From IMG/VR virus record IMGVR_UViG_3300028920_000035, positions 1 through 64,000 of that record: DNA of 64,000 bases; one strand, written 5' to 3'. The notes under the pieces were generated by a model. That model ran no database searches and had not been told where the DNA came from. It saw only the letters and a program-made list of their open reading frames with translations. The first letter of the stretch is position 1, and every line of letters starts with the position of its first letter. This DNA comes from a virus. The translations under genes and the position numbers were made by a program. Positions 6,309-24,274 of this stretch are shown piece by piece.

Positions 6309-7783
6309 TTCGATTCCCCAAAATCGGTCGTGTTTTTTCCTCCCCCGAGGCCCTCAAGCGGTATTTACAAGAGCATCCGAAGGCAGACCCTTCCAAGCAC
6401 TCTGTCAGGGGTAAGCCCAAGGGTGATAAGCCCAAGGGTGATAAGCCCAAGGACGATAAGGGGAAGGACGATAAGCCCAAGGACGATAAGGGGGAGGGGG
6501 AATCCAAGGGTGATGGGGGGAAGCCGGAAAAGGGGGCTCTCGATAGTGCTATTGATGAGGCCATCCACACTTTCCTCCGCCAGAAGAATCTGACCGAGGG
6601 GCAAAAGAAGCGCGTGCTGGAGCAGGCGATTTCTGACTCTGAGACGGAAAGCAAGGGAAAGGCCCGCAAACTGGTCAGGGACTTTTCCAAGGAAGAAGGG
6701 TTCGAGTCGCTGGAGGGACTGTCCAGTGCCGAACAAAGAAAGGTGATTGAAAGGGCATTGAAGATGGCAAACCAGCGTATTGCATCCCAGGCACAGAAGC
6801 TCGCATTGACAGACCCCAAGGCAGCCTATGATCTGTTGGATCAGGCATACTTTCCCACCGACAAGACCGCTCGTTTGAGAGTACTAGACCTTTCGGATGG
6901 GTATGCTGTGGAGGACACTGACGGAGGCATTTGGTGGCCTGATGACGATGCCCAGGAGGAGATTGCGGAGAGTCGAGACCCCGAACGATCTGCGCTTCAG
7001 ATGGCCCAGAGGCAGCCTCGTCGGGGCATCTGGAAAGATGCCGCTGTGCAGGCAGAAACCTTGGCATCTTCTAACCCCAAGGCAGCCTATGATCTGTTGG
7101 ATCAAGCCTACCTTTCCACCAACAACGCTGCCAAGGTTGCTCGGTCAGTACCCGATATTGATGTGGAGTTCGTAACTCCTCGATCCAACCAGGGTCAAAT
7201 GATCGAGGTTTCGTACTCTTTCTCAGCTGACGACGACGGTTACCTCTATAAGAAGGTGTTGAACCGTGGGTCAGGGAAGGTGACCTACTACCAGGTACAT
7301 GCTGAGGACGTGCGAGGTAAATGGGAGCCTTGGAACAGGGAACCTAAAGCTCGATTCAGGAAGCTGGCTGGTTTCTCCCAGAAGACGATGCGTGCTCACT
7401 TTGAGGAGTTCACCTACGAGGTGCTGAGTACGGTCTACGAGTACGTGGCCATGCTGCACCGTCGTATCAGCCGGCAGGAACGATTTCAGGATGTGCCAGG
7501 GTTCACCAACTGGGATATGTCCCAGAGCATCAGGGGATCCGGGAACGAAGCAGAGGGTCGTGTTTGGCTCAAGGGTGGCCTTGCCATGGACAACGGCATG
7601 GATGGTACCATCAACGTCAAGTTGACTCTGGTAGGTGATGGCGTGCAGCTCGAAGCACTGGACTATCGGACCTCTTTGGTGTCACGACGCTTCAAGTTGA
7701 CCAACACGGCATCCGGTATCGGCATGGCCGTGGGAGAGGCGTGGGAACGCAAGCTCACGGGTAGTGTGGATTACGGCGACTGA
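6305..7783 (+). CDS. Lys-rich repeat protein of unknown function
   Basis: A 492-residue protein. Residues 1-35 (FPKIGRVFSSPEALKRYLQ, then a HSV-type end) precede a low-complexity Lys/Asp/Gly/Pro run at about 36-75 built on KPKGD and KPKDD. Then come charged helices to about 165. The motif PKAAYDLLDQAY occurs twice, near residues 174 and 259, marking a duplicated segment. The C-terminal 200 residues look globular and mixed alpha/beta. It is translationally coupled to the actin-like gene by ATGA overlap, which suggests related function. I do not recognise a family. Confidence 0.7.
   Translation: MIRFPKIGRVFSSPEALKRYLQEHPKADPSKHSVRGKPKGDKPKGDKPKDDKGKDDKPKDDKGEGESKGDGGKPEKGALDSAIDEAIHTFLRQKNLTEGQKKRVLEQAISDSETESKGKARKLVRDFSKEEGFESLEGLSSAEQRKVIERALKMANQRIASQAQKLALTDPKAAYDLLDQAYFPTDKTARLRVLDLSDGYAVEDTDGGIWWPDDDAQEEIAESRDPERSALQMAQRQPRRGIWKDAAVQAETLASSNPKAAYDLLDQAYLSTNNAAKVARSVPDIDVEFVTPRSNQGQMIEVSYSFSADDDGYLYKKVLNRGSGKVTYYQVHAEDVRGKWEPWNREPKARFRKLAGFSQKTMRAHFEEFTYEVLSTVYEYVAMLHRRISRQERFQDVPGFTNWDMSQSIRGSGNEAEGRVWLKGGLAMDNGMDGTINVKLTLVGDGVQLEALDYRTSLVSRRFKLTNTASGIGMAVGEAWERKLTGSVDYGD
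6413..6493 (+). repeat. 15-nt tandem repeat encoding KPKGD/KPKDD
   Basis: About five imperfect copies of AAGCCCAAGGGTGAT and its variants (GGTGAT changed to GACGAT, CCC changed to GGG) lie in frame and code for a Lys/Asp-rich linker. The period of five codons is exact, so replication slippage would change linker length without a frameshift. Confidence 0.85.
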
Positions 7784-8977
7784 GTGTACTACTACCTGAT
7801 CTCCAGTCTGAAGCGGCGCCTGATCCTGGAGCTACAGGACGTCTTCTCGCGGCATCCCGTCTACTCGAAGATCGTCCCCTACATTCAGAATCGGTACAGC
7901 TTCGAGGAGCGCCCCCAGCACGGCATTGTCGTCAAGGGTTCGAGCGCTAATAAGGTACAGTTGTCAGCTGACAACTTCATCGGAGAGATCCAAAGCCACG
8001 TCATGCTTGCCTATGTGGGCGGGCCTGCCTTTCCCTTGGAGTGGGTCCGTGAAGACCTCCAAGCCGTCAGCTTCAATGGCAATGCCATGCCGACTCCACC
8101 AGGGGTTTACTACATCGAAATCCTGGAAGCGCCCACCAACCCGAACGAGCCTGGGTACTACGCCATTGATCCTCTGCTCACACGGACGGCAGAGCCGCTT
8201 TTCCAGTTCCAGAGCGGCGTCGAAAGAGAGGCACAGCTTCAAGCGGTCCCGGTAGAAGGGACCCTCCGTATCTGGGAAAATGAGCGACGGCTTCTCCGAG
8301 AGGGGGTCGAGTATGTGGTGGATTATAGCACGGGCGCTGTGACCTTGACGGGGGACTTCTTTGCAGGCGCCACCCTTGTTGCTGACTACCGCACGGCAGC
8401 ACCCTCGGTCGGACCAGTGGCGTTTGGCTGGAACCAGTCCGATTTCACGACTTTGCCAGGCGTCGTTCTGGCGTTCGGCAAGCGAGCTCGGAAAGGGGAC
8501 AAGGTTGCCGTCGTCATCTACCCTGAGCGAGTTTCGACGGCGCTGGCCTATGGTGGCAAGTTCGAGGTTAGCTTTGACCTGGATGTCATCTCCCGCGACA
8601 CCAACCAGATGGAAGAGTTGGCGGACTTGACCGTCATGTACCTGTGGGGGGAGAAACGCCAGTATCTGGCCTTCGAGGGTATCGAGATTACTGACGTCAA
8701 CATGGGTGGTGAGGCCGAGGAAGTCGCCGATGAGACGGGCGATCTCTACTTCTACCAAGCGAGTCTTGGTGTTTCGATCCAGGCCGATTGGGAGATCCAT
8801 GTCCCGTTGCCGCTGACCATCAGCCGCATGGAGACGAATCCTGAAGACCCCTCCCCAGGTAGCTCGTGTGACCCTGGAGAGGACCCCTTCGGTCTTAAGC
8901 AAGTTGCTTCGTCGTTGTTCTATGCCACCCACCCCGTGGTGGCGGGTCGGAACAACTCGTTCGAGCGAATCGGATAA
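7784..8977 (+). CDS. tail terminator/completion-like protein (putative)
   Basis: A 397-residue protein starting at a GTG directly after the previous stop. The N-terminal helix (SLKRRLILELQDVFSRHP) is followed by a beta insert at about 150-215 with the turn LLREGVEYVVDYSTGAVTL, a phage beta-domain pattern seen again in other tail genes here. The C-terminal third (SFDLDVISRDTNQMEELAD, YLWGEKRQ, GLYF-like strands, then WEIHVPLPL) resembles tail terminator-type proteins that cap the tail tube. Position just before the sheath supports this. Family level is inference. Confidence 0.55.
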   Translation: MYYYLISSLKRRLILELQDVFSRHPVYSKIVPYIQNRYSFEERPQHGIVVKGSSANKVQLSADNFIGEIQSHVMLAYVGGPAFPLEWVREDLQAVSFNGNAMPTPPGVYYIEILEAPTNPNEPGYYAIDPLLTRTAEPLFQFQSGVEREAQLQAVPVEGTLRIWENERRLLREGVEYVVDYSTGAVTLTGDFFAGATLVADYRTAAPSVGPVAFGWNQSDFTTLPGVVLAFGKRARKGDKVAVVIYPERVSTALAYGGKFEVSFDLDVISRDTNQMEELADLTVMYLWGEKRQYLAFEGIEITDVNMGGEAEEVADETGDLYFYQASLGVSIQADWEIHVPLPLTISRMETNPEDPSPGSSCDPGEDPFGLKQVASSLFYATHPVVAGRNNSFERIG

Positions 8978-9568: not shown

Positions 9569-12500
9569 GTGGCTCTTGGACCTTTCGTCACCTACGTACC
9601 CCCTGGTGTCTACACCCGCACCCTGACCGAGGCCAATGTTGCTTCGTTGGTGTCCGGTCTGCGTATCCCCGTCTACATCGGGGTTGGCCAGGAGGAACTG
9701 GAGCAGCTCGATCTGGAGCTGGTACGCGGTTCGAGCGCCACGCTCGACCAGCAGATCAACAACGAGGACGTCAGTCAGCGCTTTGTGCTCGACGAGACAA
9801 ACCCTAGCAACCCAACGCTTGGGCCGACCGGTGGCACGGTCGCGAAGTTCCAAGTCCGGAACTTCCCCATCGTGGACGGGCAGGGGTTTGGTCGAACCAC
9901 GAATGATGTGCGGTCGGTCCTGGTCACGGTCGATGGTGTCGCCGTAGGAGTGGGGTCGGTCCAAGGCGCCCTGGGCATGGTGACGCTCCAGGTACCGCCG
10001 GCTGCGGGCGCAGACGTCCGCTGCACCTACTTCTTCCACCGTGGCGACACCTCGTTCACGGACGACGTGTCCGACCAGGTGACCCAGGAAACGGCAACGC
10101 TCACGACTCCGGCCGTAGCCGACTTCGTGTTCGTCTTGGGGACTACAGACGAGTTCATTCTCACGATCGATGGGACTGGGGTAGAAATCACCATCACCGA
10201 GGGGACCTACACGGCTACGGGTCTGAAGAGTCACATCGACTCCAAGGCGATCAGCGGGCTGGTCATCTATGTCGAGGCCGACGCCGAGGGCAACGACCAC
10301 CTCAAGTTCGAAGCGGCACAGAGCCTCGTCATTGGTGCTGGCAACGCCAACGGGGTATTGGGCTTCTCGCCCGGCGCCCAGACGAACCGCAACCGCAACT
10401 TCCGCGTCTTCCAGCGTCCTGTCGTGGACGGTACCGACGGCGGCATCACGACGACCGACACGACCAAGGTCGTCGCGGTCGTGAACGGGACCCAGGTCGT
10501 GGTTGAGGCTCTCGACGGCGTGAACGGCGTCGTGACCTTGCCCTTCGCCCCACCGCGTAACTCCACGGTATTCGTCCAGTATTGGGCCAACACATGGCAG
10601 GACACGTTTGACTACCTGCCCAACACGCTGGTCACGACGGTCATCCGCAGCGGTTTCGCGACGGGCCGCAACGACTACATCCAGGGTCAGGATTTCGTCA
10701 TCTCGAACCCGAGTCCGGACGTCTCCGTCATCCACTGGGGTGCCAGCGTCCAGGTCAGCAGCATTCTGCGGACCCCGGGCGCCGAGGTCTTCGATGACAC
10801 CCAGATTCTGCCGACCCTTGTCGACGATCGCCTCTACCTCACCGAGTGCACTCGCGTCGTGGACACGACAGTCGTTCCCGCGGTCCCCAGCACCAAGCAG
10901 TTCCTGCTCCCCCAGGTGCCGACGACTGGCAACGGTCGCGATACACCACTCGGGCAGACCTTGTACAACACGGTCTCCAACAGCCGCATCGGGCTCAACA
11001 CCAATCGTCCCGATCTCGTGGTGGCCTATGCCGGCCGTGACGTGAAGGACGCGACCTCCCGCAACGCGCTGACGGTGGTGGAGGTCAACGCCGACACCCG
11101 GCAGGTGACCTTCCGCGAGACGGTGCCCCCTGACCACAACGTGTACGCCACGTTCTGGTACAGCCGACTTGCTGACGATCAGTTCACCATGACCAACAAG
11201 GTCGCGGGTGCGGTCGGCACCGGCCAGTTTGAGGTCTTCTCGGGCAGCCAAAACCGCAATCTTCACCAGATCCGGTTTGGGACCAAGACGGGCTTGCCCG
11301 AGATTGTCCAGTGGCCACGTGGTGTCGAGGGCATCCCCGATGCGCACCACACGGGCGCGGGCACGCCGGTCAGCGAAGAGGTGACCGTGACCTTTGGGTC
11401 TGCTCTGGCCCAGAACGCCGTCTTCACGACGACGGGCGCTGGCCCTTGGAGCTTCTTCGCGGGCACCAGTGACCAGTTCCGCGTGACGGTCAATGGCACC
11501 GATTTCGACGTTGACCTCGACGTGGCGGTCCCGGGGCAGCTGATCTCTGACAAGATCGCGGTGGATGGCTCCGACCAGATCACCATCGTGTCCGGGGACA
11601 TCCTGGAGCTGACGATCGACGGCATCGACATCACAGTCGACTTGTCCGCGCTGGCGGGTACGCCCACCATCACGGCGGTCGTGGCTGCCATCAACGCTGC
11701 CATTGACGCTGATGCTGCCTTCATTGGTACGGCGCCGAACGACTTGGTGGGCTTCGTGCGCCTGGGCCCCGCGGGCTCCGACCACGTGATCACCATCGCG
11801 AGCCTCGAAGTTCCGGTGGCACTGCCCGACGGCTTCGACAACACCTCCGCGGTGTCGATCCGTCAGGGGACCGCAGAGGCCAAGCTCGGCTTCACGGCGT
11901 TCCAGTCGGCGAGCGGCACTCCGACAGCGACCAACAAGCCGGCGACGGTCCTTGGTACCGAGGCAGGCACGTTCAACATCACCCTCAACGCCACCGATAC
12001 CCTGGAAATCCGGGTCGACGGTATCGACTACACGGTCACACTCCCCCACGGCGCGGCTGTGACACCGGCTTCTGTCGTGGGCGCCATCAACGCTACCCCG
12101 GGCCTGACGGGCGTGGCCAGCTCGAACAGCAGCGGGCCCAACGCTGACAAGATTCGCCTCACCAGTCCGACCAACGGTGCCACGAGCCGTATCGGCATTC
12201 TGGGTGGGACAGCAAACGAGATCCTGGGTTTCATCCAGGGTGACGAAGCGGGCCAGACCTTGGTCGACATCGAAGAGGTCGTCAATGAGATCCTGGCGTT
12301 CACGGGCTTCGTAGCAGAAGGCATCGCCTATATAGCGGAGATCGATGGGGCCGAGTACCTCACCATCGAGTCGGCTACGGTGGGGGCCACGACTTCCAAT
12401 GTGTCGTTCCGTACGGGGACGTCGAGCGCGTTCAACTCGACCACCGGAACCGGAATCATAGCTAACACGAGCGGCGACAACGGCGAGGACGCCTATGACA

Positions 12501-13837
12501 ACTTCGTCGTTACGTCCAACAACGCTAACGGTTCCAGCGGTACGGGCGTTCCGGGCCAGACCTATGTGGATGCTACTACGGGCTTGACCTTCACGGTCCT
12601 TCCGAGTGTCACGGGTAGCTACACGAGTACGGGTGCCTTCACCCTGATCGTGAGCGAGACCTGGACCGTCAGCCCGGCGGTACCAAGCTACAGCGTGGGT
12701 GGCCTGGAGCTGATCGTGACCGACACCGTTGGTGTTGGCGTCAACGACTCAGCTCGACTCCAGACGTTCAACCCTGGTGGCCAGGAGCCGGCGGTTGGCG
12801 ACTTCTACTACGTCTCGTACCGCTACCTGAAGCAGGATTTCTCGACGCGCCTGTTCGCCCAGTTCAAGACCATCGAGGCCAACTACGGGCCACTGACGGG
12901 CGAGAACCGAGTGACCTTGGCGGGCTACCTTGCCATTCTCAATGGTGCGGTCTTGGTCGGCATTAAGCAGGTCCAGAAGGTGGTCAACACCAACCAGGCC
13001 AGCGACCAGGACTTCATCACCGCCATCGGCGAGCTGGCGACCCCACTGCCGGGCAACATCCGTCCGGACGTTATGGTGCCGTTGACGACCTCTCCGGCCG
13101 TCTTCCAGTACTTGATGCAGCACTGCGAGGTTCAGTCGGGCATCCGCTACCAGAGCGAGCGCATGGGCTTCATTGGGTTTGCGAGCGGCACCATCCCGAC
13201 CACGGCCCAGGCGGTGGCTCGAGGGCTGCTCTCCAACCGCATCGTGGCGAGCTACCCGGATGGAGGGGTGATCACCCTGACCAACGAGCTGAACGAGTCC
13301 TACGACCAGCTCGTGGATGGTACCTTCCTGGCAGCGGCTCTCAGCGGCTCGGCGGTTTCCCCTGCTGTGGACGTGGCGACGCCGTACACCCGCCGGATCA
13401 TCCAAGGCTTCTCCTCGCTCCAGCGAATCCTCGATCCCGTCGAATCCAATCAGACGGCGGTCGCGGGCATCACGCTGTTCGAGGACCTCGACCCTGTGAT
13501 TCGGGTCCGCCAGGGCCTGACCACGGACATGAGTTCAGTCCTGACCCGGCTGCCGACGATCACCCAGATCGCCGACTACGTGCAGCAGCAGTCGCGGGCC
13601 ACGCTCGATGTGTTCGTCGGGACCAAGTTCCTGTCGAGCCGCATCAACGAGGTTGAGACGTCGATGGCGTCTCTGATGAGGCAGCTTATCCAGGAAGAGA
13701 TCGTTGCGGCATTCACGGGTATCTCGGCAGAGATCGACGCCGAAGACCCGACGATCATGCGGGTTGAAGCCTTTTATCAGCCTATATTCCCGCTTTTGTA
13801 CATCGTGATCACGTTCAACCTGAGAGCAAGGATTTGA
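9569..13837 (+). CDS. contractile tail sheath protein
   Basis: A 1422-residue protein, more than twice T4 gp18 (659 aa). The GTG start has AAAGGAG six bases upstream. The N-terminus (VPPGVYTRTLTEANV, then LRIPVYIG) is the sheath-type start. The C-terminal 330 residues (FSTRLFAQFKTIEANYG, a helical YLAILNGAVLVGIKQV, then YQPIFPLLYIVITFNL) look like the conserved sheath core that forms the intersubunit mesh. Between them sit several beta modules. Three, at about 185-275, 630-780 and 805-895, share a VDG-type strand pattern, an AIN helix and a closing LGF. They resemble flagellin IN-type domains and probably decorate the sheath exterior. Confidence 0.85.
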   Translation: MALGPFVTYVPPGVYTRTLTEANVASLVSGLRIPVYIGVGQEELEQLDLELVRGSSATLDQQINNEDVSQRFVLDETNPSNPTLGPTGGTVAKFQVRNFPIVDGQGFGRTTNDVRSVLVTVDGVAVGVGSVQGALGMVTLQVPPAAGADVRCTYFFHRGDTSFTDDVSDQVTQETATLTTPAVADFVFVLGTTDEFILTIDGTGVEITITEGTYTATGLKSHIDSKAISGLVIYVEADAEGNDHLKFEAAQSLVIGAGNANGVLGFSPGAQTNRNRNFRVFQRPVVDGTDGGITTTDTTKVVAVVNGTQVVVEALDGVNGVVTLPFAPPRNSTVFVQYWANTWQDTFDYLPNTLVTTVIRSGFATGRNDYIQGQDFVISNPSPDVSVIHWGASVQVSSILRTPGAEVFDDTQILPTLVDDRLYLTECTRVVDTTVVPAVPSTKQFLLPQVPTTGNGRDTPLGQTLYNTVSNSRIGLNTNRPDLVVAYAGRDVKDATSRNALTVVEVNADTRQVTFRETVPPDHNVYATFWYSRLADDQFTMTNKVAGAVGTGQFEVFSGSQNRNLHQIRFGTKTGLPEIVQWPRGVEGIPDAHHTGAGTPVSEEVTVTFGSALAQNAVFTTTGAGPWSFFAGTSDQFRVTVNGTDFDVDLDVAVPGQLISDKIAVDGSDQITIVSGDILELTIDGIDITVDLSALAGTPTITAVVAAINAAIDADAAFIGTAPNDLVGFVRLGPAGSDHVITIASLEVPVALPDGFDNTSAVSIRQGTAEAKLGFTAFQSASGTPTATNKPATVLGTEAGTFNITLNATDTLEIRVDGIDYTVTLPHGAAVTPASVVGAINATPGLTGVASSNSSGPNADKIRLTSPTNGATSRIGILGGTANEILGFIQGDEAGQTLVDIEEVVNEILAFTGFVAEGIAYIAEIDGAEYLTIESATVGATTSNVSFRTGTSSAFNSTTGTGIIANTSGDNGEDAYDNFVVTSNNANGSSGTGVPGQTYVDATTGLTFTVLPSVTGSYTSTGAFTLIVSETWTVSPAVPSYSVGGLELIVTDTVGVGVNDSARLQTFNPGGQEPAVGDFYYVSYRYLKQDFSTRLFAQFKTIEANYGPLTGENRVTLAGYLAILNGAVLVGIKQVQKVVNTNQASDQDFITAIGELATPLPGNIRPDVMVPLTTSPAVFQYLMQHCEVQSGIRYQSERMGFIGFASGTIPTTAQAVARGLLSNRIVASYPDGGVITLTNELNESYDQLVDGTFLAAALSGSAVSPAVDVATPYTRRIIQGFSSLQRILDPVESNQTAVAGITLFEDLDPVIRVRQGLTTDMSSVLTRLPTITQIADYVQQQSRATLDVFVGTKFLSSRINEVETSMASLMRQLIQEEIVAAFTGISAEIDAEDPTIMRVEAFYQPIFPLLYIVITFNLRARI

Positions 13838-13847
13838 AAATCCTAGT

Positions 13848-13881
13848 GTTTTTGGCCTGACCTATGGGTCGGGCCAAAAAC
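13848..13881 (+). terminator. strong hairpin after the sheath gene
   Basis: A 15-bp stem with one G-T pair and a TATG loop: GTTTTTGGCCTGACC pairs with GGTCGGGCCAAAAAC. It begins 10 bases after the sheath stop. The 3' arm ends in A's and no U-run follows, so it is not a textbook intrinsic terminator. It may still act as a transcript end, processing or stability element separating sheath mRNA from the following gene. Confidence 0.5.
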
Positions 13882-13926
13882 GCGGCAGGCCAATAATTGT
13901 AGGGTCCCTGGGCCGTTTGGGGGTGT

Positions 13927-15978
13927 ATGCTCTTGAGCATGAACCGGTCCCAAGCTTTGGAAGCCTTCTCCACCGACGAGCCCTTCAAGGCTGTCGCAAA
14001 GCGGTTGGGTATGAGCCCCAACACGTTGCGGAGGTTGTGGAAGGAACGCTATGGGGAGGCCGCCTTCAAGGAACGAGGCTGCCGCATCCAGCAGCTGGGA
14101 GCCACAGCCTACGGGGCGCGGACCAAGGGTCGCGCAAAGGCGCGGACCCAGGTAGAGGTCCAATGCTCACAGTGTGGTAAACCCTTTCAGGTGACGAGGG
14201 GGCAGCGGGCGAAGGCCAGGCGTCTAGTCTGCCCTTCATGCTCGACGGCAGGCAAAGAGGTGTGCCCGGTGTGTAACCTTCACTGCGATGGGGCGAAGGG
14301 GTTGGCAACACACTTCCGCCACCAGGCAGAGGACCCCCCTCATCGAGAATGGCTCGCCGAGCGCGAGGCTGCCAAGTGGAAAGGCTTGACGGAGGGGCTG
14401 GACTATGTGACCTGCCGCGTGTGCGGGCTCAACGCCCACGCCTTGACGGGGCACCTGCGGGTACACCAGCTGACGGCTGAGGAGTACCGCGCGGACCACC
14501 CTGACGCCCTCGTCGTCGCGTCACGAGTCGAGGCACGGAGGCAGGCAGCCTTGGCCCCGATAGCGGCTGAGCGCGCCTATGGGTGGTCACGTGAGGACTT
14601 GCTGAAATTCTGTGACGAGCAGGGCAAGGTGATTGTCGCTGAGGCCGCCATGTACCTGAAGGCGGCCCCTTTGACGGTCTTGCACTACTGCCGGAGCCTT
14701 GGGCTGCCGACCCGGAACCGATTGGCGTGGCAGCGTGCGGTCCTCGACAAGGCTGCAAAGGTCTGGGGGGCCAAGTACCAGTGGGAGTGGTCAACGCCAG
14801 AGATCCGGAACCCCAACACGGGCAGGATGCTCAACTACGACGGCTACTTCCCTTCTCTGAACCTTCTGCTCGAAGCACATGGGGAGCAACACTTCCGCTA
14901 TTCCGAGGCATGGCACGGCTCGCTAGAAGCCTTCAGGACATCACGGCGCAGGGACGAGTTCAAGAAGGCTCGGGCCGAGGAGTTGGGCTATGGTTACAGG
15001 GTCGTCAAGTTCACCGACCCCTGGGACACTGACGAGTTCTGGGAGGCCCTCAAGCTGGGCACGCCCGAGCGCCCAGCGAATCTTGAGGACAAGGTATTCC
15101 ACATCTTGAGACAGGCGGGGTTCCCCCGCCCGGAGCCCAACGTTGCCGAGGCCAAGAAGGCTCTGACCAGGCTGGGATCGACACGTTGCTTCTTGGACGA
15201 CGACTTCCACGTGCGCCCGTACAGCATCGCGGGGACGGCCGCGTGTGCGTCTTTCTTCCCCAACCGCTACCATGCTCACTACCGGGGGGCGAAGAGCGCT
15301 TTTGAGGCATGGCATGATGACGAGGCATTGCGAAAGGCAATCCGGCTGCAATTGGACAGTGGCCATCCGACGACACCAGAGCGTGTGCTTCGGGCGCTGG
15401 TAATGCACCATCGGACGCCTTCGGTGTTTCGACCTGCGGTTGCTAAATACGTCTATCAGACCTACGCCCCCGGCGGTGTTGTGTGGGACCCCTGTGCGGG
15501 TTATGGTGGCCGGCTCATGGGGGCAGTGGCGGCGGGGGTCGAGAGGTATGTTGCAACCGAGGTCGAGCCCGAGACCATCGAGGGAAACCGCGCCTTGGCT
15601 CAGGCTTTAGGTGTCACTATGTGCGAGCTGCATCAGGAAGGAGCCGAGGGATTTGACCCTGGCCCAGTTGACCTTGTGTTCACGTCGCCTCCCTACCTCG
15701 ACTTGGAGGTCTACGGTTCAGCTTCTCAAGCTGACTGCTCTACGTGGGTCGACGAGTTTCTAGTCCCCGTTGTCCACCGCGCGGCTCAGCGCCTTTGGGC
15801 AGGAGGGCACCTGATCCTCAATCTGCCGTTCAAGCCAGTGCGAGGGCTTCGTTTGGACTTGGAAGCCAAGGCGCTCGCCGAGAGGGAGGGGCTGGTGGAG
15901 GAGCCGACCGTGTGGATGCCTGTCCGCGCCTTCAGGGGCCCCTTCAAGGCCGAACCTCTTCTGGTGTGGCGTCGCTAA
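13927..15978 (+). CDS. HTH/zinc-finger/EDxHD-like nuclease/DNA methyltransferase fusion
   Basis: A 683-residue protein with four parts. Residues about 10-45 are a helix-turn-helix (FKAVAKRLGMSPNTLRRLW). Residues 80-190 hold three zinc sites: CxxC(80/83) with CxxC(102/105); CPVC with a downstream His pair; and CRVCG with HLRVH followed by LTAEEYRADHP, a MucR-like finger. Residues 300-380 (NYDGYFPSLNLLLEAHGEQH, then RRRDEFKKARAEELGY and RVVKF) look like a Vsr/EDxHD-type nuclease as in phage homing endonucleases. Residues 505-683 are a SAM methyltransferase with WDPCAGYGGR and catalytic TSPPY at 585. It could be a homing nuclease, a one-chain restriction-modification enzyme or both. The insertion lies between sheath and tube genes. 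Confidence 0.8.
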   Translation: MLLSMNRSQALEAFSTDEPFKAVAKRLGMSPNTLRRLWKERYGEAAFKERGCRIQQLGATAYGARTKGRAKARTQVEVQCSQCGKPFQVTRGQRAKARRLVCPSCSTAGKEVCPVCNLHCDGAKGLATHFRHQAEDPPHREWLAEREAAKWKGLTEGLDYVTCRVCGLNAHALTGHLRVHQLTAEEYRADHPDALVVASRVEARRQAALAPIAAERAYGWSREDLLKFCDEQGKVIVAEAAMYLKAAPLTVLHYCRSLGLPTRNRLAWQRAVLDKAAKVWGAKYQWEWSTPEIRNPNTGRMLNYDGYFPSLNLLLEAHGEQHFRYSEAWHGSLEAFRTSRRRDEFKKARAEELGYGYRVVKFTDPWDTDEFWEALKLGTPERPANLEDKVFHILRQAGFPRPEPNVAEAKKALTRLGSTRCFLDDDFHVRPYSIAGTAACASFFPNRYHAHYRGAKSAFEAWHDDEALRKAIRLQLDSGHPTTPERVLRALVMHHRTPSVFRPAVAKYVYQTYAPGGVVWDPCAGYGGRLMGAVAAGVERYVATEVEPETIEGNRALAQALGVTMCELHQEGAEGFDPGPVDLVFTSPPYLDLEVYGSASQADCSTWVDEFLVPVVHRAAQRLWAGGHLILNLPFKPVRGLRLDLEAKALAEREGLVEEPTVWMPVRAFRGPFKAEPLLVWRR

Positions 15979-16038: not shown

Positions 16039-16710
16039 GTGGACCACCGACGCCTATTTGAGGATCTGTCTCGAACTCGAGCATTGGCTCGTAGCGATCG
16101 GGATTGTGCCCGAGAACGCGCTACCGCGGCTTACCATGCTGAAGTGGTCGACGAAGCACAAAAGGCGCGGCCACGATCTCGCCCCAAAGTTCGAGACATG
16201 GCGTGGGCTACCAAGATTCTGAGTTTGGAGAAAGTGCAGAAGATTCGCGAGCAGCATCGAATTTTCGCGGAGGAAGTGGGCGCTGTTTTCACACGTCGGA
16301 TTGAGCGTCTCGATCGGCTACTTTCTAAGGTGGCTGTTCGGGCGCCCGTGCGAGCAGGGGCATCTCCTTCTGTCCTGTACGTGGCTTGGGTGAGTACCTA
16401 CTCTAGTCAAGGATTTGGAGCGAATTCTTACGCACGTAATGCCGCAGAAGCCTATGCTGATGTCGCTCGGGGAGAGAACATTCCCGTTGAGGTGTCCCCT
16501 TCGAAGAAGGGTGGCGGCGACTACGAGGTTTTGGTTTGGGTGGAGAGCCCGTTAGATGTGGAGATTCTTCGACTCAAACCAGGGCCTAGTTTGCGCGAGC
16601 AGATTCGTCTATGCTGGGCACGTGGCGTCAACCCTCGAGTCTACAACCCTTACTTGCCGGTTGGGATCGAGGCTAAGCTGGGGATCGACTGCCAAGGTAG
16701 GTACCTGTAA
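16039..16710 (+). CDS. hypothetical protein
   Basis: A 223-residue protein from the GTG at 16039; an internal ATG at 16198 would give a shorter 170-residue form. The N-terminal half is charged and helical (Arg/Ala-rich, then EKVQKIREQHRIFAEEVG). The second half is mixed alpha/beta (VLYVAWVSTYSSQGFG, YEVLVWVESPLDVEIL). Codons use more A and T than neighbouring structural genes, which fits later acquisition. No family is recognised. It ends TAATG, sharing a base with the next start. Confidence 0.55.
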   Translation: MDHRRLFEDLSRTRALARSDRDCARERATAAYHAEVVDEAQKARPRSRPKVRDMAWATKILSLEKVQKIREQHRIFAEEVGAVFTRRIERLDRLLSKVAVRAPVRAGASPSVLYVAWVSTYSSQGFGANSYARNAAEAYADVARGENIPVEVSPSKKGGGDYEVLVWVESPLDVEILRLKPGPSLREQIRLCWARGVNPRVYNPYLPVGIEAKLGIDCQGRYL

Positions 16711-16972: not shown

Positions 16973-19900
16973 ATGACTGATCGATGGGCCTCTACTGATA
17001 CCGAGGATATCTTCGCGCCTGAACCAGGAGAGGCACAGGCAACTTCTCAGATAGTTACTGCGGCTAAGGACGAAGAGGTCGACGATGAAGAGGCCCTTGG
17101 AGCCTTGTCCAATGCCGAGTACGTGATCTTCCTGCTCGGGTACGACACATTCCTGCGCTATATCGAGGAGTTCACAGACCCCTTGGGGGAGGAGCAGCTG
17201 AAGGAGCCCGAAACCGCCAAGTACATCAAGGCCCTGGAGGGGCTTGCGGCACAAGGGTCCAAGCTCATGCTGCGGGTCGATCGCGAGGTAACTGCCAACT
17301 TCCAGCGGTTCATGGCTGGTCAGCTGGAAACTCGAGCCCACAAGACGATGTTCACCCGGGCCATGCGGTTCCGCGTGACCAGCGTCGAGGGGATTGCCCG
17401 CCGCGCTCAGATGATTCGCGACGTCATGGAGCTGGGCGGCGCCAAAACGCGGACCGCTGTCTTTGGTAAGAGTCGCAAGGCCGCGACTTGGATTCGCAAA
17501 GCCATCAACGCCACGTGGGAAGACGATGCCGACAAGGCGCTCGACGTCTTCGAGGCGTTCAACCTCTCGAACGCGCGGGTCCGGGCCTGGTTTGATGTCG
17601 CTGCCAAGCTGGCGGGTTCGCACGAGGTCCCAGAGAGTGCCATCGCAGCGGGCGTTCTGGAGGCGTCAGGGCGCGCTCAGGAGCTGTTCAAGGCACAGGT
17701 CGAGGAGACCGGAGCTTCAGACTCAGGTGATTCTCGGCAGGGTGGCGAGGCCAAGCAGCTCGTTCTGGATCAGGTCGAGCAGCATGCGGCGACGGCGGCC
17801 AAGAAGGTCATGGATGCCCGCGGGGAGGACGACACGCCCCCTGCCAAGAGTGAGGTCGTAGGTATTGCCACCGCCGTAGCAACCGCGGTTGTGGCGGATC
17901 CTGCCAATCCTGCCAACGTTCCCCAGTCGCTCAAGGATGCGCTTGGTAAGGATGAGGAGCAGCTTGCGGCGGCTATGACGGAGGGCCGTGCCATCATCGC
18001 GGCCGGCGCGGGCGCGGGCAAGAGCCGCACCCTTGTAGCGCGCGTCACGCACCTCATCAAGGACCGCCCCGATGTGTCCCCTGTCAACGTCCTGGTCTGC
18101 TCCTTCAATGCCGAAGCCGCCGAGGAACTTCGAGGTCGTTTGCGGTTGAGCGTTGGGGGCGACGACTACAAGCAGCTGGAGCGCAACATCGGGACGACCC
18201 ATGCGATCTTCGCTCGATGGTTGCGAGATGACCGCCTCAATACGAGGCATCCCGAATTCAAGACAGCCGCCAGTCAAGGCAATATCGCCGACGGCGGCAG
18301 TGTCGCACGAACGGTCAATGACCTGTGGCGCAAGTGCAAGGCTGAGTTTGATGAGAACGGTGTGCTTCGTCCTGGGAAGCCCCCCGCAGAGGCTCCGAAG
18401 CTCAAGACCTATTGGGCGGGCAACGGTATCGACCCCAAGGAGGCCATGCTGACCGCGAGCAACGACGACGAGCGGGAAGCGGCCGAGTGGTATCAGTGGT
18501 ACGAGGGGCTCAAGGGTGCCATTCCCGGGTGGCGGTTCAACTGCCAAGGGCCGGACCACCGCAAGAATGAAGAGGCCCAGACCATCTATCAAGCACATGA
18601 GGATCGGGCCCGCCGCGGGGGCACCCTGCGGTTGAGTGATTTCGATGACCACTTGTTGATGTGCGCCCGGATGCTCGAAGAGAATCCCGACGCGCGCAGG
18701 AAGCTCCAGCGGCAGTTCAAGCATGTGCTTGTGGACGAATGTGTCAGTGGCGAGACCCAGGTGCAGACCCAGGACGGTCCCGTCGCAGTCAAAGATCTCC
18801 AAGAAGGTACTTTGATCCTATGCTTCAACAATGGGTCAGCTGAGTATAAGAAGGTACTTTCTCTCAGGCAAAGTTCAAAGACAGAGGGCATCAGGGTCAT
18901 TTTGGCGAACGGGTTGGAGCTGGCCATGACTCAGTGTCATCGCCTGTACGCAACTCCTTTTCACAGAGACTTGATTCCGGACGGGTACTTAGCTCTCTAC
19001 TTGATGTATCGGAAGGGGTTCGGTTACCGTGTTGGGGTCAGTGCCAACCCATTTTCTAGAGGGGGTCTAGGGAACGGTCGCACGGCCTCTGAGCGCCCTG
19101 ACGCTCTTTGGATTCTGGAGACTGGGCCTTCTGAGGAAATGCTCTTTAAGGAGCAGTCTACGGCTTTGAACTTTGGGGTGCCCACGAGTGTCTACGAGGG
19201 GGTTCCTAGGGATCTCAACCAACGGTACATTGACAGGATCTTTGCTGAGTTCGGGGACAATGGCACGAAAGTTCTGGAGGCCTACGGTTTCTCACCTGAC
19301 TACCCTCATTGGGTGAATGCCGGCCACTTCAGAGGGCGGGTCCATCGACACGCTGTGATGCTGCATGCTCACCGAGGGAGTATGCCTGGCAAGGGTAGGG
19401 GTTGTTCTGCCATACAGATGAGTTGGACAGGAGATGTCCCTGAAGTGCTCGCGGACGGCGTTTGTCAGACGAGAGACGGTCGAACTAACTATTCTTACCG
19501 TTCAAGCTCTTACAGCGACGTGCGCAAGAAAGCGGTTGAGATCGCAAACACCTTGGGGTGTTTTGTGAGAGAGACTCTGTCCGTGCAGGGGGAGTCCTGC
19601 CTCAAGATCACGGCAGCCAACCTGTTCCCAGGCATGAAGCTTCCTGTATGGGAGGGCGGCGTCCGGCGAGATTCCAACACCCTTTTGAGGGGTAAGGCTA
19701 GTCGTGACAAGGTTGCATCCCTTGGTTTTGACGTTCCCTCTCGTGGGAGCCTTAGTGCAGCTGACTATGCTCACTATCAGGAGCAATCAGAGGGGGCTTT
19801 GCTCTCTCTTGATGATACCCGAGTAGTCTTGGAAGAGATTGTGGAAGTCGTAGCCGAACAAGGCTCGTACTATGACATCACGGTCGAGGATGCAGGCAAC

Positions 19901-22900
19901 TTCTTCGGGAATAGGGTCCTGAGCCACAACTGTCAGGACCTCAGTGCCACCCAGCTCAAGGTATTCGATTTGATTACCGAGCATGTGACTACCAGGGGCG
20001 AGAACGGCACGAGCTACTGGATGGTCGGCGACGACAAGCAGTGTGTGGCCGACGACACCTGGATCACCGTCACGCCCCCAGGTGAGCACAGATTGGACGG
20101 CACGGTGAAAGCTGCCAAGGAGTTGGTTCCTGGCGATGGCATCGTGTCATACCGCAACGGCGACGTCGTGGTGCAGAAGGTGCGCCACGTCGAGAAGTCG
20201 AGTTGGACTAAGGGGTTCAAGATCACGACGGCTTCTGGCCGGTCGCTGGTCATGTCGCCCAATCACAAGATCTGGGCACACGCTCCTTCTTTGCGAGAAG
20301 GTCAGGTCGCCGTTTACCTCATGTTCCGCAACGACATGGGATTCCGTGTTGGTATCACCAACAAGTGCCGTGACGATGAGTACCTCAATTCGTTCGGTGG
20401 GCGTGCTTTCATGGAGAAGGCTGAGCGGATGTGGGTGCTCGACGTCTGTGACGACCGTGAGTTTGCTCTGCTCAAGGAGGAGACCTACTCGCTCCAGTAC
20501 GGCATCCCGACGATGGTGTTCGAGGGTGCCAATCGAGGTGTCAACCAGGACCGCATCGTCAAACTGTTCGAGCAGTTTGGCTCGAACGGGGCCCGTCTGC
20601 TGGAGGAGCGGCATCTTCACTTCGACCTCCCACATTGGATGAGCCAGTCGTACACCAAGCACAGTCGCGGACGCCGCACGGTCCACATGAACGCCCACGC
20701 GGGCAAGGGCACACAGGTTTCTTTGGAGTGGGCTGGTGACGACCTCGACAGTAAGGTCAACACCCCCTTCACGGTTAAGGGTGAGCGCCGCCGCTTGCGC
20801 AAGTTCTTCACCAACTACCGTGCGGCCTTGGAGTTCGCAGAGGGTCTCGCGCGGCGCGCGGAGGCCAACCTGTCACGTCGGCTGTCAACTCCTGAAGGGT
20901 CTGTTCGTTTAACGACGGCCTCTGGCATTCACGTCGGCTCTCAGGTGCTAATCTCAGACGACCAGAACGACGTCATGTTGGACGAGGTGGTCGAGGTCGA
21001 GACCGTCCAGGAGGTCAACTTCATCGACATTGACGTCGATGACGCCTCTAATTTCTTCGGCAACGGTATCCTGAGCCACAACAGCATCTACTCTTGGCGA
21101 GGGGCTAAGAGTGAGACCTTCCAGAGTCGCGCTGACGACGAGAACTGGCAGCTGCGGACCATCACGACCAACTACCGTTGCCCGCCGGCCATTGTTGGGT
21201 TTGCCAACGACCTGATTGCCCACAACGGGGCCGACCAGATCCCGTTCGAGGCCAAGCCCAACCCTTGGAAACAGGCCGACGAGGGCAGCCTTCGAGTCGA
21301 AACCCCCGAGACGGAGGCCGATGCCTCGAACCTGGTGGTCGAGACCATCAAGGCTCGTTTAGCCGATGACACGGAGGAAGGCCACCGGCCACCGTACATG
21401 GAGCATGCAGTCCTTTCACGGACCCAGAAGATGCTCGATATCTACGAGACATCGTTGGTCTTCCAGGGGATTCCTTTCGCACGCAAGGGCCCCCGCTCGA
21501 ACTTCGGGACGCCCGAGATGCGCGGCGTCGTGGGTGCCGTCAAGGTAGCTTTCAGCGACGACCCCGCGGACACCGTGAACGGGCTCGTGGACATGCTGAT
21601 CGCGCCCAACAAGTTCGCGCAGGCGGTCAACAAGCCCAGCATCATGCGCAAGAAGGTCGAGGCGGCGATGCGCCGTGCCTACGGACGCGAGTGGAAGACC
21701 GTTATGGCTCGTGATGCCATGCAGGACCGCACCTTCCAGAATGCCCTCGCGCAAGAGATGGGTGGTTCCCGGATTCACCAGCAACGCGTACGGATGGCAG
21801 CCGAGGACTTCGAGACCTTGTTCAACATTCGAGTCGGCGATGACGGGCTGCCCCCGACCATGACCGAGGTCATGACGACGATTCTCGGCTTCCGAGGAGT
21901 TTCCTGGGAGCTGGACCCAGACAAGATGGGTCAGAAGTTCGAGATGCAGGACGTCATCCGTCCGTGGCGCGAGATGCTCAGCGCCAAGCAACAGGACCGG
22001 GGCGACGATGAAGATGAGAGCGAGGGCGAGGGCGAGGGCGAGGGCGAGGAGAAGGAATCTCTGGGACCCATCGACTTCCTGTGGCAGCTGATGACGCCCC
22101 AGCCGGACGTCGATGAAGCCGACGAGCAGGACCCCCCGGACCGCCCGATAGGCTTTCTTCGTAAGGCGTCCAATTTGAACGAACAGGCTCGCAAGCTCGT
22201 GTATGACATTGGCGCCTACAAGCGTGCTGTGCGTGGTTTGGGCGCCTACCGAGACCGCAAGTTCGGCGGACGTACTGTGACCAAGGAAGAGCAGTATGAG
22301 GCCGACCTGGCCAAATGCCCACCCGGCGGGATGCCCACTCCTGAGGAGATCGCGGCGAATCCCGACCTGTTGAAGCGACCCCCCGCGGTCTACCTGGGAA
22401 CGTGTCACTGCTCGCCCCCAGATGAACCAGTGTTAACCACTCAAGGGTATGTTGCCATTGGTGACCTTGACCCTGAACAACATCGGGTTGCTTCATACCT
22501 CGATAGCTGCAACCAGCTGTTTTGGGGAAAGGACCCTGGCCCGGTCGCGAGCGAACGGAAGGGCTATGCTTTCACGAAGACAGAGTGGCCTTTCCAAGGT
22601 AACTTGGTTGTTCTGAAGACTGGCCAAAGCATTACGCGGGTCACCCCTGATCACCGGTTGCGGGTGAAGTTTGCCCCTGAGTTTTTTGATAAGTACGTCG
22701 TATACTTGATGCGCAGAGGCAGCTGGTGGCGCGTTGGAATGACCCAGTCAGGATCTCGCCCTTACAAGGCTACGACCTTGGAGACTCGATTGGCTGCCGA
22801 GAAGGCGGACAACGGTTGGGTCCTAGGAGTGTTCGAGAGCAGAGAAGCCGCTTTGGAACAAGAAGCCATACTTCAAGGCCGGTACGGCATTCTGGGGCTG

Positions 22901-24274
22901 ACCTTTGAAAGCTCGAAGCAGCGCTCTCTGACGACTGACCAGCTGCACCGCATTCACGACTTCGTAAGTGCTGAGGCGGAAGGGCGAGCCCTTAGGTTGC
23001 TATCCGACCACGGTCTTGATCCTGAAGACCCCCTCTACTCAAGGCCGGGGGACGGCCAAAGGTGGTCCGACAAGCGGGAGTCTTTCACGATCAGGGCTCG
23101 CAACTTCTTGAGTGGTTATATGCTGTTGCCGGTGGTAAAACCCTGCTTTGTCGAATGTACTGGGCCACGGGAGGAGTGGGCTAAGCCTCAGTGGTTGCTA
23201 GGGACGACTCAGGCAATCTTTTACGATGGGCCTGTCTACAGTTTGGATGTCGACCCCCACCACTACTATGTCAGCGGAGGTGCGGTTGTCCACAACTCCA
23301 CAAAGGGTGCCGAATGGAGGAACACCTATGTCTTGATGCCCAAGGACAAGTTCCCAGGGCGGATGCGGCTACCAGATGACCTCAAAGCTCGTGAGCTGGT
23401 TCCCGAAGGTAACTTCGACAGGGTCGACGAGGCCGTCAAGCAAGGTTTGCTTGATGAGGATCGAGCCCGGGAACTCAAGGCGGGGAGCATGGTTGACCCC
23501 AGCAGCCCTGTCGAGATGTTCGTCTCGGGGAGTATCAGCTTGTACGTCTTCGAGCGGTGGCGGAACCACATGCGGGACGAACGCCGATTGGGCTATGTGG
23601 CGATCACGCGCGCCCAAGAGCGGGCGATGGTCCTATGCCCCTCCGAGGTCAATGGCCAAGCAGCGGGGGTCAGTCCCTTCGTCACGGAAATGGGGCTGTT
23701 CCCGGGTGAGAACATCGGTCGAAGCCCCGCGGATGATGAGGTTGACGAGGAGATCGCCGCTGAGGTGGGGTCCCCCGAGGGCGCCGTCGAATTGCAAGGC
23801 GATGGCTCTCCCGTCATTCAGCCTCAGCATCCAGAGGTTCAGGTCGCTGAAGTGGCGGCAGACCCCACGAAGACAGACGACACCTGGCTTCTGGACACCG
23901 CTCTGGTGTATACGATCGAGGACGTTCCCACGCTTGAAGATGCGACGGCCGTTGAGAACCTCCAGAAAACCCTCAATGCCATTACCGGACGGGCACGGGA
24001 AGTGGACCCCAATTGGCAATCGGGGTCCAAGGAAGAGCTGCGGTCGGCTGTCGAAGCAACTTCCAACCTGATGGAGGCCGCTCAGGCCGAGGGCAACGAC
24101 AAGTACAATCAGGCTCTCAACAACTTGTTGGGGGTCTTGATGGGTTTGATGTTCAAGGCCAGGGTTAAGACCAAGATGGCCAAAACCAAGAGGGCCAACG
24201 ATGGTATCACCGTTACCGAGGTCATCTCAACTTGGCTCGATGGTGATGAGCCCCTCATGACTTCGGAGAATTGA
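16973..24274 (+). CDS. UvrD/Rep-type (SF1A) DNA helicase precursor with three inteins
   Basis: A 2433-residue precursor; removing three inteins leaves about 1393 residues. Walker A is AGAGAGKS at 344-351. Motif II (VDE/CQDLSATQ) is split by intein 1, motif III (GDDKQ/SIYSWRGA) by intein 2, and motif V (GTCH/STKGAEW) by intein 3. Motif VI is RLGYVAITRAQERA near 2205. These are signatures of the UvrD/Rep/PcrA 3'-5' helicase family. About 330 N-terminal residues and 150 C-terminal residues are unassigned, and an acidic Glu/Gly run lies near 1685. Activity should require splicing at all three sites, since each intein interrupts a catalytic motif. Its place amid tail genes is odd. Confidence 0.9.
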   Translation: MTDRWASTDTEDIFAPEPGEAQATSQIVTAAKDEEVDDEEALGALSNAEYVIFLLGYDTFLRYIEEFTDPLGEEQLKEPETAKYIKALEGLAAQGSKLMLRVDREVTANFQRFMAGQLETRAHKTMFTRAMRFRVTSVEGIARRAQMIRDVMELGGAKTRTAVFGKSRKAATWIRKAINATWEDDADKALDVFEAFNLSNARVRAWFDVAAKLAGSHEVPESAIAAGVLEASGRAQELFKAQVEETGASDSGDSRQGGEAKQLVLDQVEQHAATAAKKVMDARGEDDTPPAKSEVVGIATAVATAVVADPANPANVPQSLKDALGKDEEQLAAAMTEGRAIIAAGAGAGKSRTLVARVTHLIKDRPDVSPVNVLVCSFNAEAAEELRGRLRLSVGGDDYKQLERNIGTTHAIFARWLRDDRLNTRHPEFKTAASQGNIADGGSVARTVNDLWRKCKAEFDENGVLRPGKPPAEAPKLKTYWAGNGIDPKEAMLTASNDDEREAAEWYQWYEGLKGAIPGWRFNCQGPDHRKNEEAQTIYQAHEDRARRGGTLRLSDFDDHLLMCARMLEENPDARRKLQRQFKHVLVDECVSGETQVQTQDGPVAVKDLQEGTLILCFNNGSAEYKKVLSLRQSSKTEGIRVILANGLELAMTQCHRLYATPFHRDLIPDGYLALYLMYRKGFGYRVGVSANPFSRGGLGNGRTASERPDALWILETGPSEEMLFKEQSTALNFGVPTSVYEGVPRDLNQRYIDRIFAEFGDNGTKVLEAYGFSPDYPHWVNAGHFRGRVHRHAVMLHAHRGSMPGKGRGCSAIQMSWTGDVPEVLADGVCQTRDGRTNYSYRSSSYSDVRKKAVEIANTLGCFVRETLSVQGESCLKITAANLFPGMKLPVWEGGVRRDSNTLLRGKASRDKVASLGFDVPSRGSLSAADYAHYQEQSEGALLSLDDTRVVLEEIVEVVAEQGSYYDITVEDAGNFFGNRVLSHNCQDLSATQLKVFDLITEHVTTRGENGTSYWMVGDDKQCVADDTWITVTPPGEHRLDGTVKAAKELVPGDGIVSYRNGDVVVQKVRHVEKSSWTKGFKITTASGRSLVMSPNHKIWAHAPSLREGQVAVYLMFRNDMGFRVGITNKCRDDEYLNSFGGRAFMEKAERMWVLDVCDDREFALLKEETYSLQYGIPTMVFEGANRGVNQDRIVKLFEQFGSNGARLLEERHLHFDLPHWMSQSYTKHSRGRRTVHMNAHAGKGTQVSLEWAGDDLDSKVNTPFTVKGERRRLRKFFTNYRAALEFAEGLARRAEANLSRRLSTPEGSVRLTTASGIHVGSQVLISDDQNDVMLDEVVEVETVQEVNFIDIDVDDASNFFGNGILSHNSIYSWRGAKSETFQSRADDENWQLRTITTNYRCPPAIVGFANDLIAHNGADQIPFEAKPNPWKQADEGSLRVETPETEADASNLVVETIKARLADDTEEGHRPPYMEHAVLSRTQKMLDIYETSLVFQGIPFARKGPRSNFGTPEMRGVVGAVKVAFSDDPADTVNGLVDMLIAPNKFAQAVNKPSIMRKKVEAAMRRAYGREWKTVMARDAMQDRTFQNALAQEMGGSRIHQQRVRMAAEDFETLFNIRVGDDGLPPTMTEVMTTILGFRGVSWELDPDKMGQKFEMQDVIRPWREMLSAKQQDRGDDEDESEGEGEGEGEEKESLGPIDFLWQLMTPQPDVDEADEQDPPDRPIGFLRKASNLNEQARKLVYDIGAYKRAVRGLGAYRDRKFGGRTVTKEEQYEADLAKCPPGGMPTPEEIAANPDLLKRPPAVYLGTCHCSPPDEPVLTTQGYVAIGDLDPEQHRVASYLDSCNQLFWGKDPGPVASERKGYAFTKTEWPFQGNLVVLKTGQSITRVTPDHRLRVKFAPEFFDKYVVYLMRRGSWWRVGMTQSGSRPYKATTLETRLAAEKADNGWVLGVFESREAALEQEAILQGRYGILGLTFESSKQRSLTTDQLHRIHDFVSAEAEGRALRLLSDHGLDPEDPLYSRPGDGQRWSDKRESFTIRARNFLSGYMLLPVVKPCFVECTGPREEWAKPQWLLGTTQAIFYDGPVYSLDVDPHHYYVSGGAVVHNSTKGAEWRNTYVLMPKDKFPGRMRLPDDLKARELVPEGNFDRVDEAVKQGLLDEDRARELKAGSMVDPSSPVEMFVSGSISLYVFERWRNHMRDERRLGYVAITRAQERAMVLCPSEVNGQAAGVSPFVTEMGLFPGENIGRSPADDEVDEEIAAEVGSPEGAVELQGDGSPVIQPQHPEVQVAEVAADPTKTDDTWLLDTALVYTIEDVPTLEDATAVENLQKTLNAITGRAREVDPNWQSGSKEELRSAVEATSNLMEAAQAEGNDKYNQALNNLLGVLMGLMFKARVKTKMAKTKRANDGITVTEVISTWLDGDEPLMTSEN
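18740..19930 (+). mobile_element. intein 1 in helicase motif II
   Basis: 397 residues (590-986 of the precursor). It starts with Cys (CVSGETQVQT, block A), has TQCHRLY as block B, and ends LSHN followed by Cys+1. The insert contains LYLMYRKGFGYRVGVS, a later Arg and a FKEQS Glu, resembling a GIY-YIG nuclease core (Y-L-M for GIY, Y-R-V-G for YIG). The site falls between DE and QD of the Walker B motif. Codons are visibly richer in A/T third positions than the surrounding helicase. Confidence 0.9.
20042..21082 (+). mobile_element. intein 2 in helicase motif III
   Basis: 347 residues (1024-1370). It starts CVADDTWITVTPPG, has SPNHKIW as block B, and ends LSHN before Ser+1. The insert VYLMFRNDMGFRVGIT, with later Arg, WVLDV and LLKEET, matches the GIY-YIG-like insert of intein 1, as does the following FEG..NQ and PHW region, so the two are close paralogues. 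Codon use is GC-rich like the host gene, suggesting longer residence. Confidence 0.9.
22409..23296 (+). mobile_element. intein 3 in helicase motif V
   Basis: 296 residues (1813-2108). It starts CSPPDEPVLTTQG, has TPDHRLRV as block B, a YSLDVDPHHYYVSGG block F and ends VVHN before Ser+1. It carries VVYLMRRGSWWRVGMT, then ETRLAAEKAD, WVLGV and LEQEA, the same GIY-YIG-like core in shorter form. It is the most divergent of the three and lacks the PHW region in clear form. Confidence 0.9.

Follow-up and report, generated by a model that had tools for sequence, protein, structure and literature searches.

Sequence comparison indicates that a gene lying directly after a tail sheath gene in the window, by which we mean the whole 64,000-nucleotide stretch of viral DNA that was analyzed, very probably acts as a free-standing homing element in large phages. 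Its product joins an HTH, zinc fingers, a Vsr/EDxHD-like nuclease and an SPPY methyltransferase (MTase) in one chain (Table 1), an arrangement that a preliminary description had read from the DNA and that the intact open reading frame, Pfam and PHROGs matches and structure models now bear out. Homing had been raised in the same description, and the suggestion is strengthened by the fixed slot beside the sheath gene, by empty and alternative alleles in close relatives and by a break in flank homology. Related genes come and go at fixed slots with other kinds of nuclease attached, which points to a selfish gene equipped with its own enzyme for marking DNA, and we think it fairly probable that we are dealing with a mobile homing element whose MTase marks carrier DNA against its own cutting.

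Table 1. The nuclease–MTase fusion gene, its predicted parts and the adjoining sheath gene (window coordinates; res, residues of the fusion protein)
Feature	Position	Strand	Basis or remark
Tail sheath gene, directly 5′ of the fusion	9569..13837	+	C-terminal 450 aa match phrog_2839 tail sheath, E = 6e-28
EDxHD nuclease–MTase fusion gene, whole, 683 aa	13927..15978	+	ATG start, ORF intact
HTH, N-terminal, res 6-46	13942..14064	+	HTH_23, E = 7.7e-4; model helices 2-13, 20-27, 31-42
Zinc ribbon, res 79-109	14161..14253	+	zf_Tbcl_Rhp7 / Zn_ribbon_8 (weak); C-x2-C pairs in sequence
C2H2-like zinc finger, res 112-143	14260..14355	+	Weak match; C113, C116, H129, H139 invariant in 10 homologues
Ros/MucR-type zinc finger, res 159-191	14401..14499	+	PF05443, E = 3.6e-5; C163, C166, H176, H180 invariant
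Second helix pair, probable HTH, res 235-257	14629..14697	+	Model helices 237-244, 248-257; inferred
Vsr/EDxHD nuclease, res 283-364	14773..15018	+	D305, E316, H318, Q321, H322, D343, K346
MTase N-terminal region, res 380-500	15064..15426	+	Common to stand-alone MTase NVP2058O_092; part travels with the nuclease in cassette swap; possible target-recognition part
MTase catalytic core, res 501-683	15427..15975	+	phrog_12517, E = 1.6e-13; motif I DPCAGYGGR 521-529; SPPY 587-590

In Pfam and PHROGs searches, residues 297-357 of the nuclease region matched the homing endonucleases of phrog_559 (E = 5e-8) and phrog_9084 (E = 6e-5), and the phrog_12517 match of the MTase region covered residues 493-613. 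The model of the whole protein had a mean pLDDT of 83, and that of the nuclease segment alone a pLDDT of 97. Among solved structures, Vsr (1vsr, 1cw0) came closest to the nuclease model, and I-Bth0305I (3r3p), an EDxHD homing enzyme, matched with a probability of 0.99; the Foldseek E-values were modest, 0.005 to 0.06. A PDB sequence search with the nuclease, sheath and PD-(D/E)XK profiles gave no useful match. The MTase half has a class I SAM fold and, in structure comparison, matched Trm11 and BpuSI, a type IIG enzyme, among other PDB entries. It carries motif I and motif IV, (S/D/N)PP(Y/F), of DNA amino-methyltransferases (m4C/m6A) and is predicted from these motifs to be such an enzyme, although the resemblance of the fold to RNA methyltransferases such as Trm11 counts against a DNA-marking role.

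Full-length homologues are 40-55% identical to the 683-aa protein. A protein scan of viral contigs recovered one immediately behind the sheath gene of a 618.7-kb phage (L001), together with a second copy (L002), and a scan with an MTase alignment added more fusions as well as numerous stand-alone MTases some 350 aa long. Proteins with the same domain order, which the preliminary description had named as a check, were present in L001, L007-L010, L014, L146, L151 and L164, and 10 full-length EDxHD-MTase fusions could be aligned. All 10 share D305, E316, H318, G319, Q321, H322, D343, K346, D521, P522, C523 and S587-Y590, and motif I (521-529) and SPPY (587-590) are near-invariant or invariant among them. 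Over 18 nuclease homologues, 11 columns were invariant, including D305, E316, H318-G319, Q321-H322, D343 and K346; 9 of the 18 aligned nucleases have no MTase, yet possess the same active site. The catalytic residues of the nuclease, whose absence from all homologues had been named as evidence against the proposal, are thus kept. In close pairs of EDxHD, LAGLIDADG and PD fusions, from which the swapped block of L151/L164 was excluded as saturated, dN/dS was 0.07-0.15 for nucleases and 0.05-0.12 for MTases, which indicates purifying selection on each half in the pairs tested. The 10 full-length homologues rule out a chance ORF or misjoined domains, because they retain 40-55% identity over their full length and dN/dS is 0.05-0.15 in both halves of close pairs. 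Similarly, a dead MTase serving only DNA binding was rejected for most members, considering the invariant motifs and a dN/dS of 0.08-0.10 in EDxHD pairs; the exceptions are L240, in which the motifs are lost, and L005 and L215, in which SPPY is altered (SIPY and CPPY, respectively).

The EDxHD-MTase genes of the window, L001, L007-L010, L014, L146, L151, L155 and L164 stand directly after the sheath gene. That of L215 is also downstream of it, at a greater distance, and the single exception, L005, follows a different capsid-like gene. The slot was usable in 72 of the 80 loci listed and held an EDxHD-MTase in 12, an EDxHD nuclease without MTase in 14 (one of which, L185, ends at the contig end) and neither in 46, counts that are not frequencies in nature. 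On the sheath tree of these 72 loci, presence of the fusion required 9 changes, at least 7 of them forced by well-supported branches. No near-identical relative of the window's sheath was present among the loci compared. Empty sites in related phages, likewise anticipated by the preliminary description, were found by blastn in three pairs: L155/L206, with 87% identity to 22 nt past the sheath end and 89.5% from 5 nt after the fusion stop; L164/L171, with flank identities of 91% and 83%; and L151/L171, with 86% and 77-79%. In close pairs, homology extends as far as the stop codon of the sheath gene and picks up again immediately behind the inserted gene.

This MTase family also occurs in combination with three other types of nuclease. 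A LAGLIDADG nuclease is joined to it in L006, L011-L013, L015, L019, L023, L035 and L087 (PF03161, E = 1.7e-38 in L006 and 1e-18 in L012), a doubled HNH in L016 (phrog_374, E = 4.5e-105), and a zinc-ribbon protein with two PD-(D/E)XK-like repeats in L251, L253, L254, L260, L262 and L293; this last class was assigned from motifs only, with E130, D154 and K166 invariant in the first repeat. The LAGLIDADG- and PD-(D/E)XK-MTase fusions lie directly after the major capsid gene (phrog_2522, E = 3e-53), the profile of which matched the phage Gp27 major capsid protein 6wkk in a PDB sequence search. A search of the window's own record (147.6-kb piece) for this capsid protein found none. Among 67 capsid-slot rows drawn from the 80 loci listed, again not frequencies in nature, 13 held a LAGLIDADG-MTase, 6 a PD-MTase, 20 a LAGLIDADG only (a few of these being TnpB-disrupted or cut fusions) and 28 neither, and the presence of MTase-bearing genes required 11 changes over these rows. 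Pairs at the capsid slot showed no clear excess of changes at the end of the capsid gene. An apparent gain or loss of the MTase between identical phages (L261 versus L264, L265 and L259) was rejected: in the latter three a TnpB/IS605-like gene separates the LAGLIDADG and MTase parts, whereas L261 is uninterrupted, with identical DNA up to the insertion. A G+C-rich hairpin with a T-run lies between the capsid gene and the fusion in carriers of LAGLIDADG fusions. The 618.7-kb contig of L001 has three tandem LAGLIDADG genes without MTase after its capsid gene (L280), and an EDxHD-MTase in its sheath slot.

These slots bear on whether the protein is instead a phage-borne, single-chain restriction-modification enzyme that methylates a short site throughout the phage genome and cleaves host or superinfecting DNA lacking the mark, a weapon and not a homing element. 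We consider this unlikely, since EDxHD, LAGLIDADG and HNH nucleases belong to homing enzymes, since the places after sheath and capsid genes are fixed, have empty and nuclease-only alleles and show flank changes at the slot, and since, in the bacterial genome set, the single clear case of a nuclease fusion, L087, itself lies downstream of a phage capsid gene. Type IIG enzymes (BpuSI, MmeI class) do share the plan of nuclease and MTase in one polypeptide, together with the MTase fold (BpuSI), models of type II MTases and mad2 matched in PADLOC, and Mom-nuclease fusions of jumbo phages have been read as restriction (PMC7824862). The window gene differs from type IIG enzymes in its homing-type nuclease, zinc-finger/HTH targeting and fixed phage slot. 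Among curated restriction families, NCBIfam had no match for the 683-aa protein and PADLOC matched MTase models only, which speaks against a known restriction family; no such family with the same domain order was found, contrary to what the preliminary description had allowed for, and the Mom-nuclease fusions of jumbo phages are a described parallel (PMC7824862).

In a maximum-likelihood tree of 52 MTases, the fused enzymes fell together on one side (85/67; 87% of bootstrap trees). EDxHD-fused MTases formed one clade (100/96) within a mixed EDxHD/LAGLIDADG clade (99/94), PD-fused MTases formed another (100/99), and the LAGLIDADG label required at least 3 changes. The nesting of EDxHD-fused among LAGLIDADG-fused MTases suggests that nucleases were swapped on a kept MTase, and the simplest reading of the tree is that the MTase entered the homing world once and that its nuclease was then exchanged repeatedly. 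Separate capture of an MTase by each nuclease type is unsupported, given that the fused enzymes group together. The other side of the tree holds stand-alone phrog_12517 MTases such as NVP2058O_092 (annotated as N-4 cytosine-specific methylase), which have no nuclease but are homologous across the whole MTase half, including the N-terminus.

Exchange was also visible within the EDxHD fusions. L151 and L180 are 93-100% identical over residues ~180-515 and 67-92% identical elsewhere, with the swap boundary in L151 at about residues 495-515, whereas L164 has a different block (33-75%) between residues ~200 and ~495 and flanks of 63-90%. The MucR finger, HTH, nuclease and MTase N-terminus were thus exchanged as one piece while the MTase core stayed, the pattern expected of a shared specificity cassette, as judged from this one set of three genes. 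Exchange of the MTase N-terminus along with the nuclease, persistence of the single chain through several nuclease swaps, which cargo would not need, and separation of fused from stand-alone MTases in 87% of bootstrap trees make it quite unlikely that the gene is a homing nuclease with useful cargo, its MTase shielding the phage from host restriction irrespective of the nuclease's site, even though the same MTase family stands alone in many phages (e.g., Vibrio phage 2.058.O, L017-L034) and cargo on phage homing genes has already been described (PMC10448857).

Between distant loci, identity is 0.17 downstream of the sheath versus about 0.68 upstream; because nothing downstream is conserved, the sheath 3′ end is the conserved candidate target, and about its last 65 nt (13775-13837) are the likely target or a possible co-converted flank. 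L146 (fusion) and L148 (nuclease only), in which the sheath C-termini (320 aa) are identical and the slot genes nevertheless differ, have 1 difference in 1425 nt and then 15 in 75 at the sheath end, all synonymous, unless L146 is misassembled. The pair comes from short metagenome contigs, and the 6.9-kb one of L146 may contain an assembly error, since L148 and L155 are identical over 36 nt at the junction. The independent pairs L139/L141 and L164/L171 showed the same excess of tail change. Of 120 fusion-empty pairs, 93 had more synonymous change in the sheath tail (last 63 nt) than in its body, compared with 108 of 294 empty-empty pairs, the pairs being mutually non-independent, and CTTTTRTACAT occurred at the sheath tail in 7/7 fusion carriers, 0/10 nuclease-only loci and 6/33 empty loci. 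Vertical inheritance at a syntenic place, with loss alone causing the patchiness, is highly improbable: many carriers have the same neighbours, but L146 and L148 differ in their slot genes, and L146 and L155, ~11% apart in the sheath (4-18 per 75 nt), have 2-3 differences across the terminal sheath codons plus the 3.4 kb that follow, unless L146 is misassembled.

According to the homing and self-marking mechanism that we propose, the HTH/zinc-finger part would guide the Vsr/EDxHD nuclease, in a mixed infection, to the neighbourhood of the tail sheath 3′ end in a competing genome, and repair from the carrier would copy the fusion gene and the adjoining sheath end into the slot. The fused MTase would mark the sites that the nuclease recognizes, or ones overlapping them, in carrier and progeny DNA, leaving their own genome uncut, and rival alleles at the slot might then displace the fusion less easily. 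Self-marking could free the nuclease to attack conserved sequences of essential genes without disrupting them. The fixed slot, the empty and alternative alleles, the excess divergence of the sheath end, the selected active sites and the retention of the MTase across nuclease exchange come from comparing sequences; cleavage, methylation, shared specificity and protection are the parts that we infer. Protective methylation would fit the kept active sites, the selection on both halves and the retained MTase, and we lean towards a self-marking role. Two observations count against it: nuclease-only alleles thrive in the sheath slot without an MTase, and one LAGLIDADG fusion (L240) is without MTase motifs. 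Moreover, methylation is not strictly needed at the sheath end, if that end is the target, because carriers already look recoded there; what the MTase protects may therefore be sites elsewhere, newly synthesized DNA, or the slot itself against rival nuclease alleles. Attack on rival phages, the other role envisaged in the preliminary description, may be the same activity as homing with self-marking.

Homing endonucleases are thought to spare their own genome by interrupting or altering the site, and an MTase that is kept while nuclease types change would show another answer, self-marking. More tentatively, these genes may constitute a selfish homing class working by modification, in which a conserved MTase is combined by turns with EDxHD, LAGLIDADG, HNH and PD-(D/E)XK-like nucleases and carrier DNA is treated as self. 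If true, such a class would link homing endonucleases with restriction-modification, two textbook systems that would meet in one protein, and Mom-type Hef enzymes would be a parallel solution. The question lends itself to experiment: a single enzyme can reveal both where it cuts and where it methylates, alleles that are empty, nuclease-only or nuclease-plus-MTase occur naturally at the same slot, and the exchanged finger-nuclease block is a natural experiment on specificity.

The literature searched, mostly freely accessible papers, contained no description of a homing endonuclease-methyltransferase fusion. I-Bth0305I is intron-borne and is not known to carry a methyltransferase, whereas the window gene is free-standing and MTase-bearing. 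The two are alike in their Vsr-like nuclease, active-site kind, modular DNA-binding regions and phage origin (PMC3943268). Iyer and co-workers described jumbo-phage proteins in which a Mom domain is joined to a nuclease of the REase fold, and interpreted them as combining restriction with protection (PMC7824862). Mom (GNAT)-REase and Hef-like proteins (phrog_3339, phrog_559) likewise combine DNA-binding modules, a related nuclease and a possible C-terminal DNA modifier in one chain, but their modifier is a GNAT domain, whereas the C-terminal half of the window protein is a Rossmann-fold MTase with DPCAGYGG and SPPY. The GNAT domain of phrog_3339 (PF13673, E = 3.5e-5) is weakly linked to Mom (phrog_1384, E = 0.02; hhalign P = 0.0096 in a single comparison), and Hef-like proteins may therefore be fusions of the Mom-REase type. 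Hef-like homing endonucleases occurred in 404 phage records (loci L005:1440-3152, L300, L301 and L304), with a C-terminal GNAT and a weak colinear match to Mu Mom. Like the fusions discussed here they adjoin structural genes, as in Campylobacter phage Los1 and Vibrio phage K469, where they lie beside head/neck genes.

Several features were noted around the sheath slot. In L173 (a 323-kb phage contig), a CRISPR-like array at 7605-8613, with at least 13 copies of GTTTCAATTACGAGGGAGGCTTTCACCTCCCTCAGG about every 74 nt, occupies the slot directly behind an N-terminal remnant of an EDxHD-MTase gene. In the window, a terminator-like inverted repeat (ttttggcctgacc...gggtcgggccaaaa) at 13837-13890 separates the sheath stop from the fusion. 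The fusion is followed by a 223-aa ORF (16039-16710, +) that has no convincing family match and was not found at other sheath loci, and then by the next large gene, a UvrD/REP helicase gene (16973-24274, +; 2433 aa) with Hint_2 and Intein_splicing matches; in L156, UvrD is directly after the sheath. By eye, the window's UvrD/REP gene contains three inteins, each with a similar 'YLMxRxGxxxRVGxT' domain that is GIY-YIG-like in looks.
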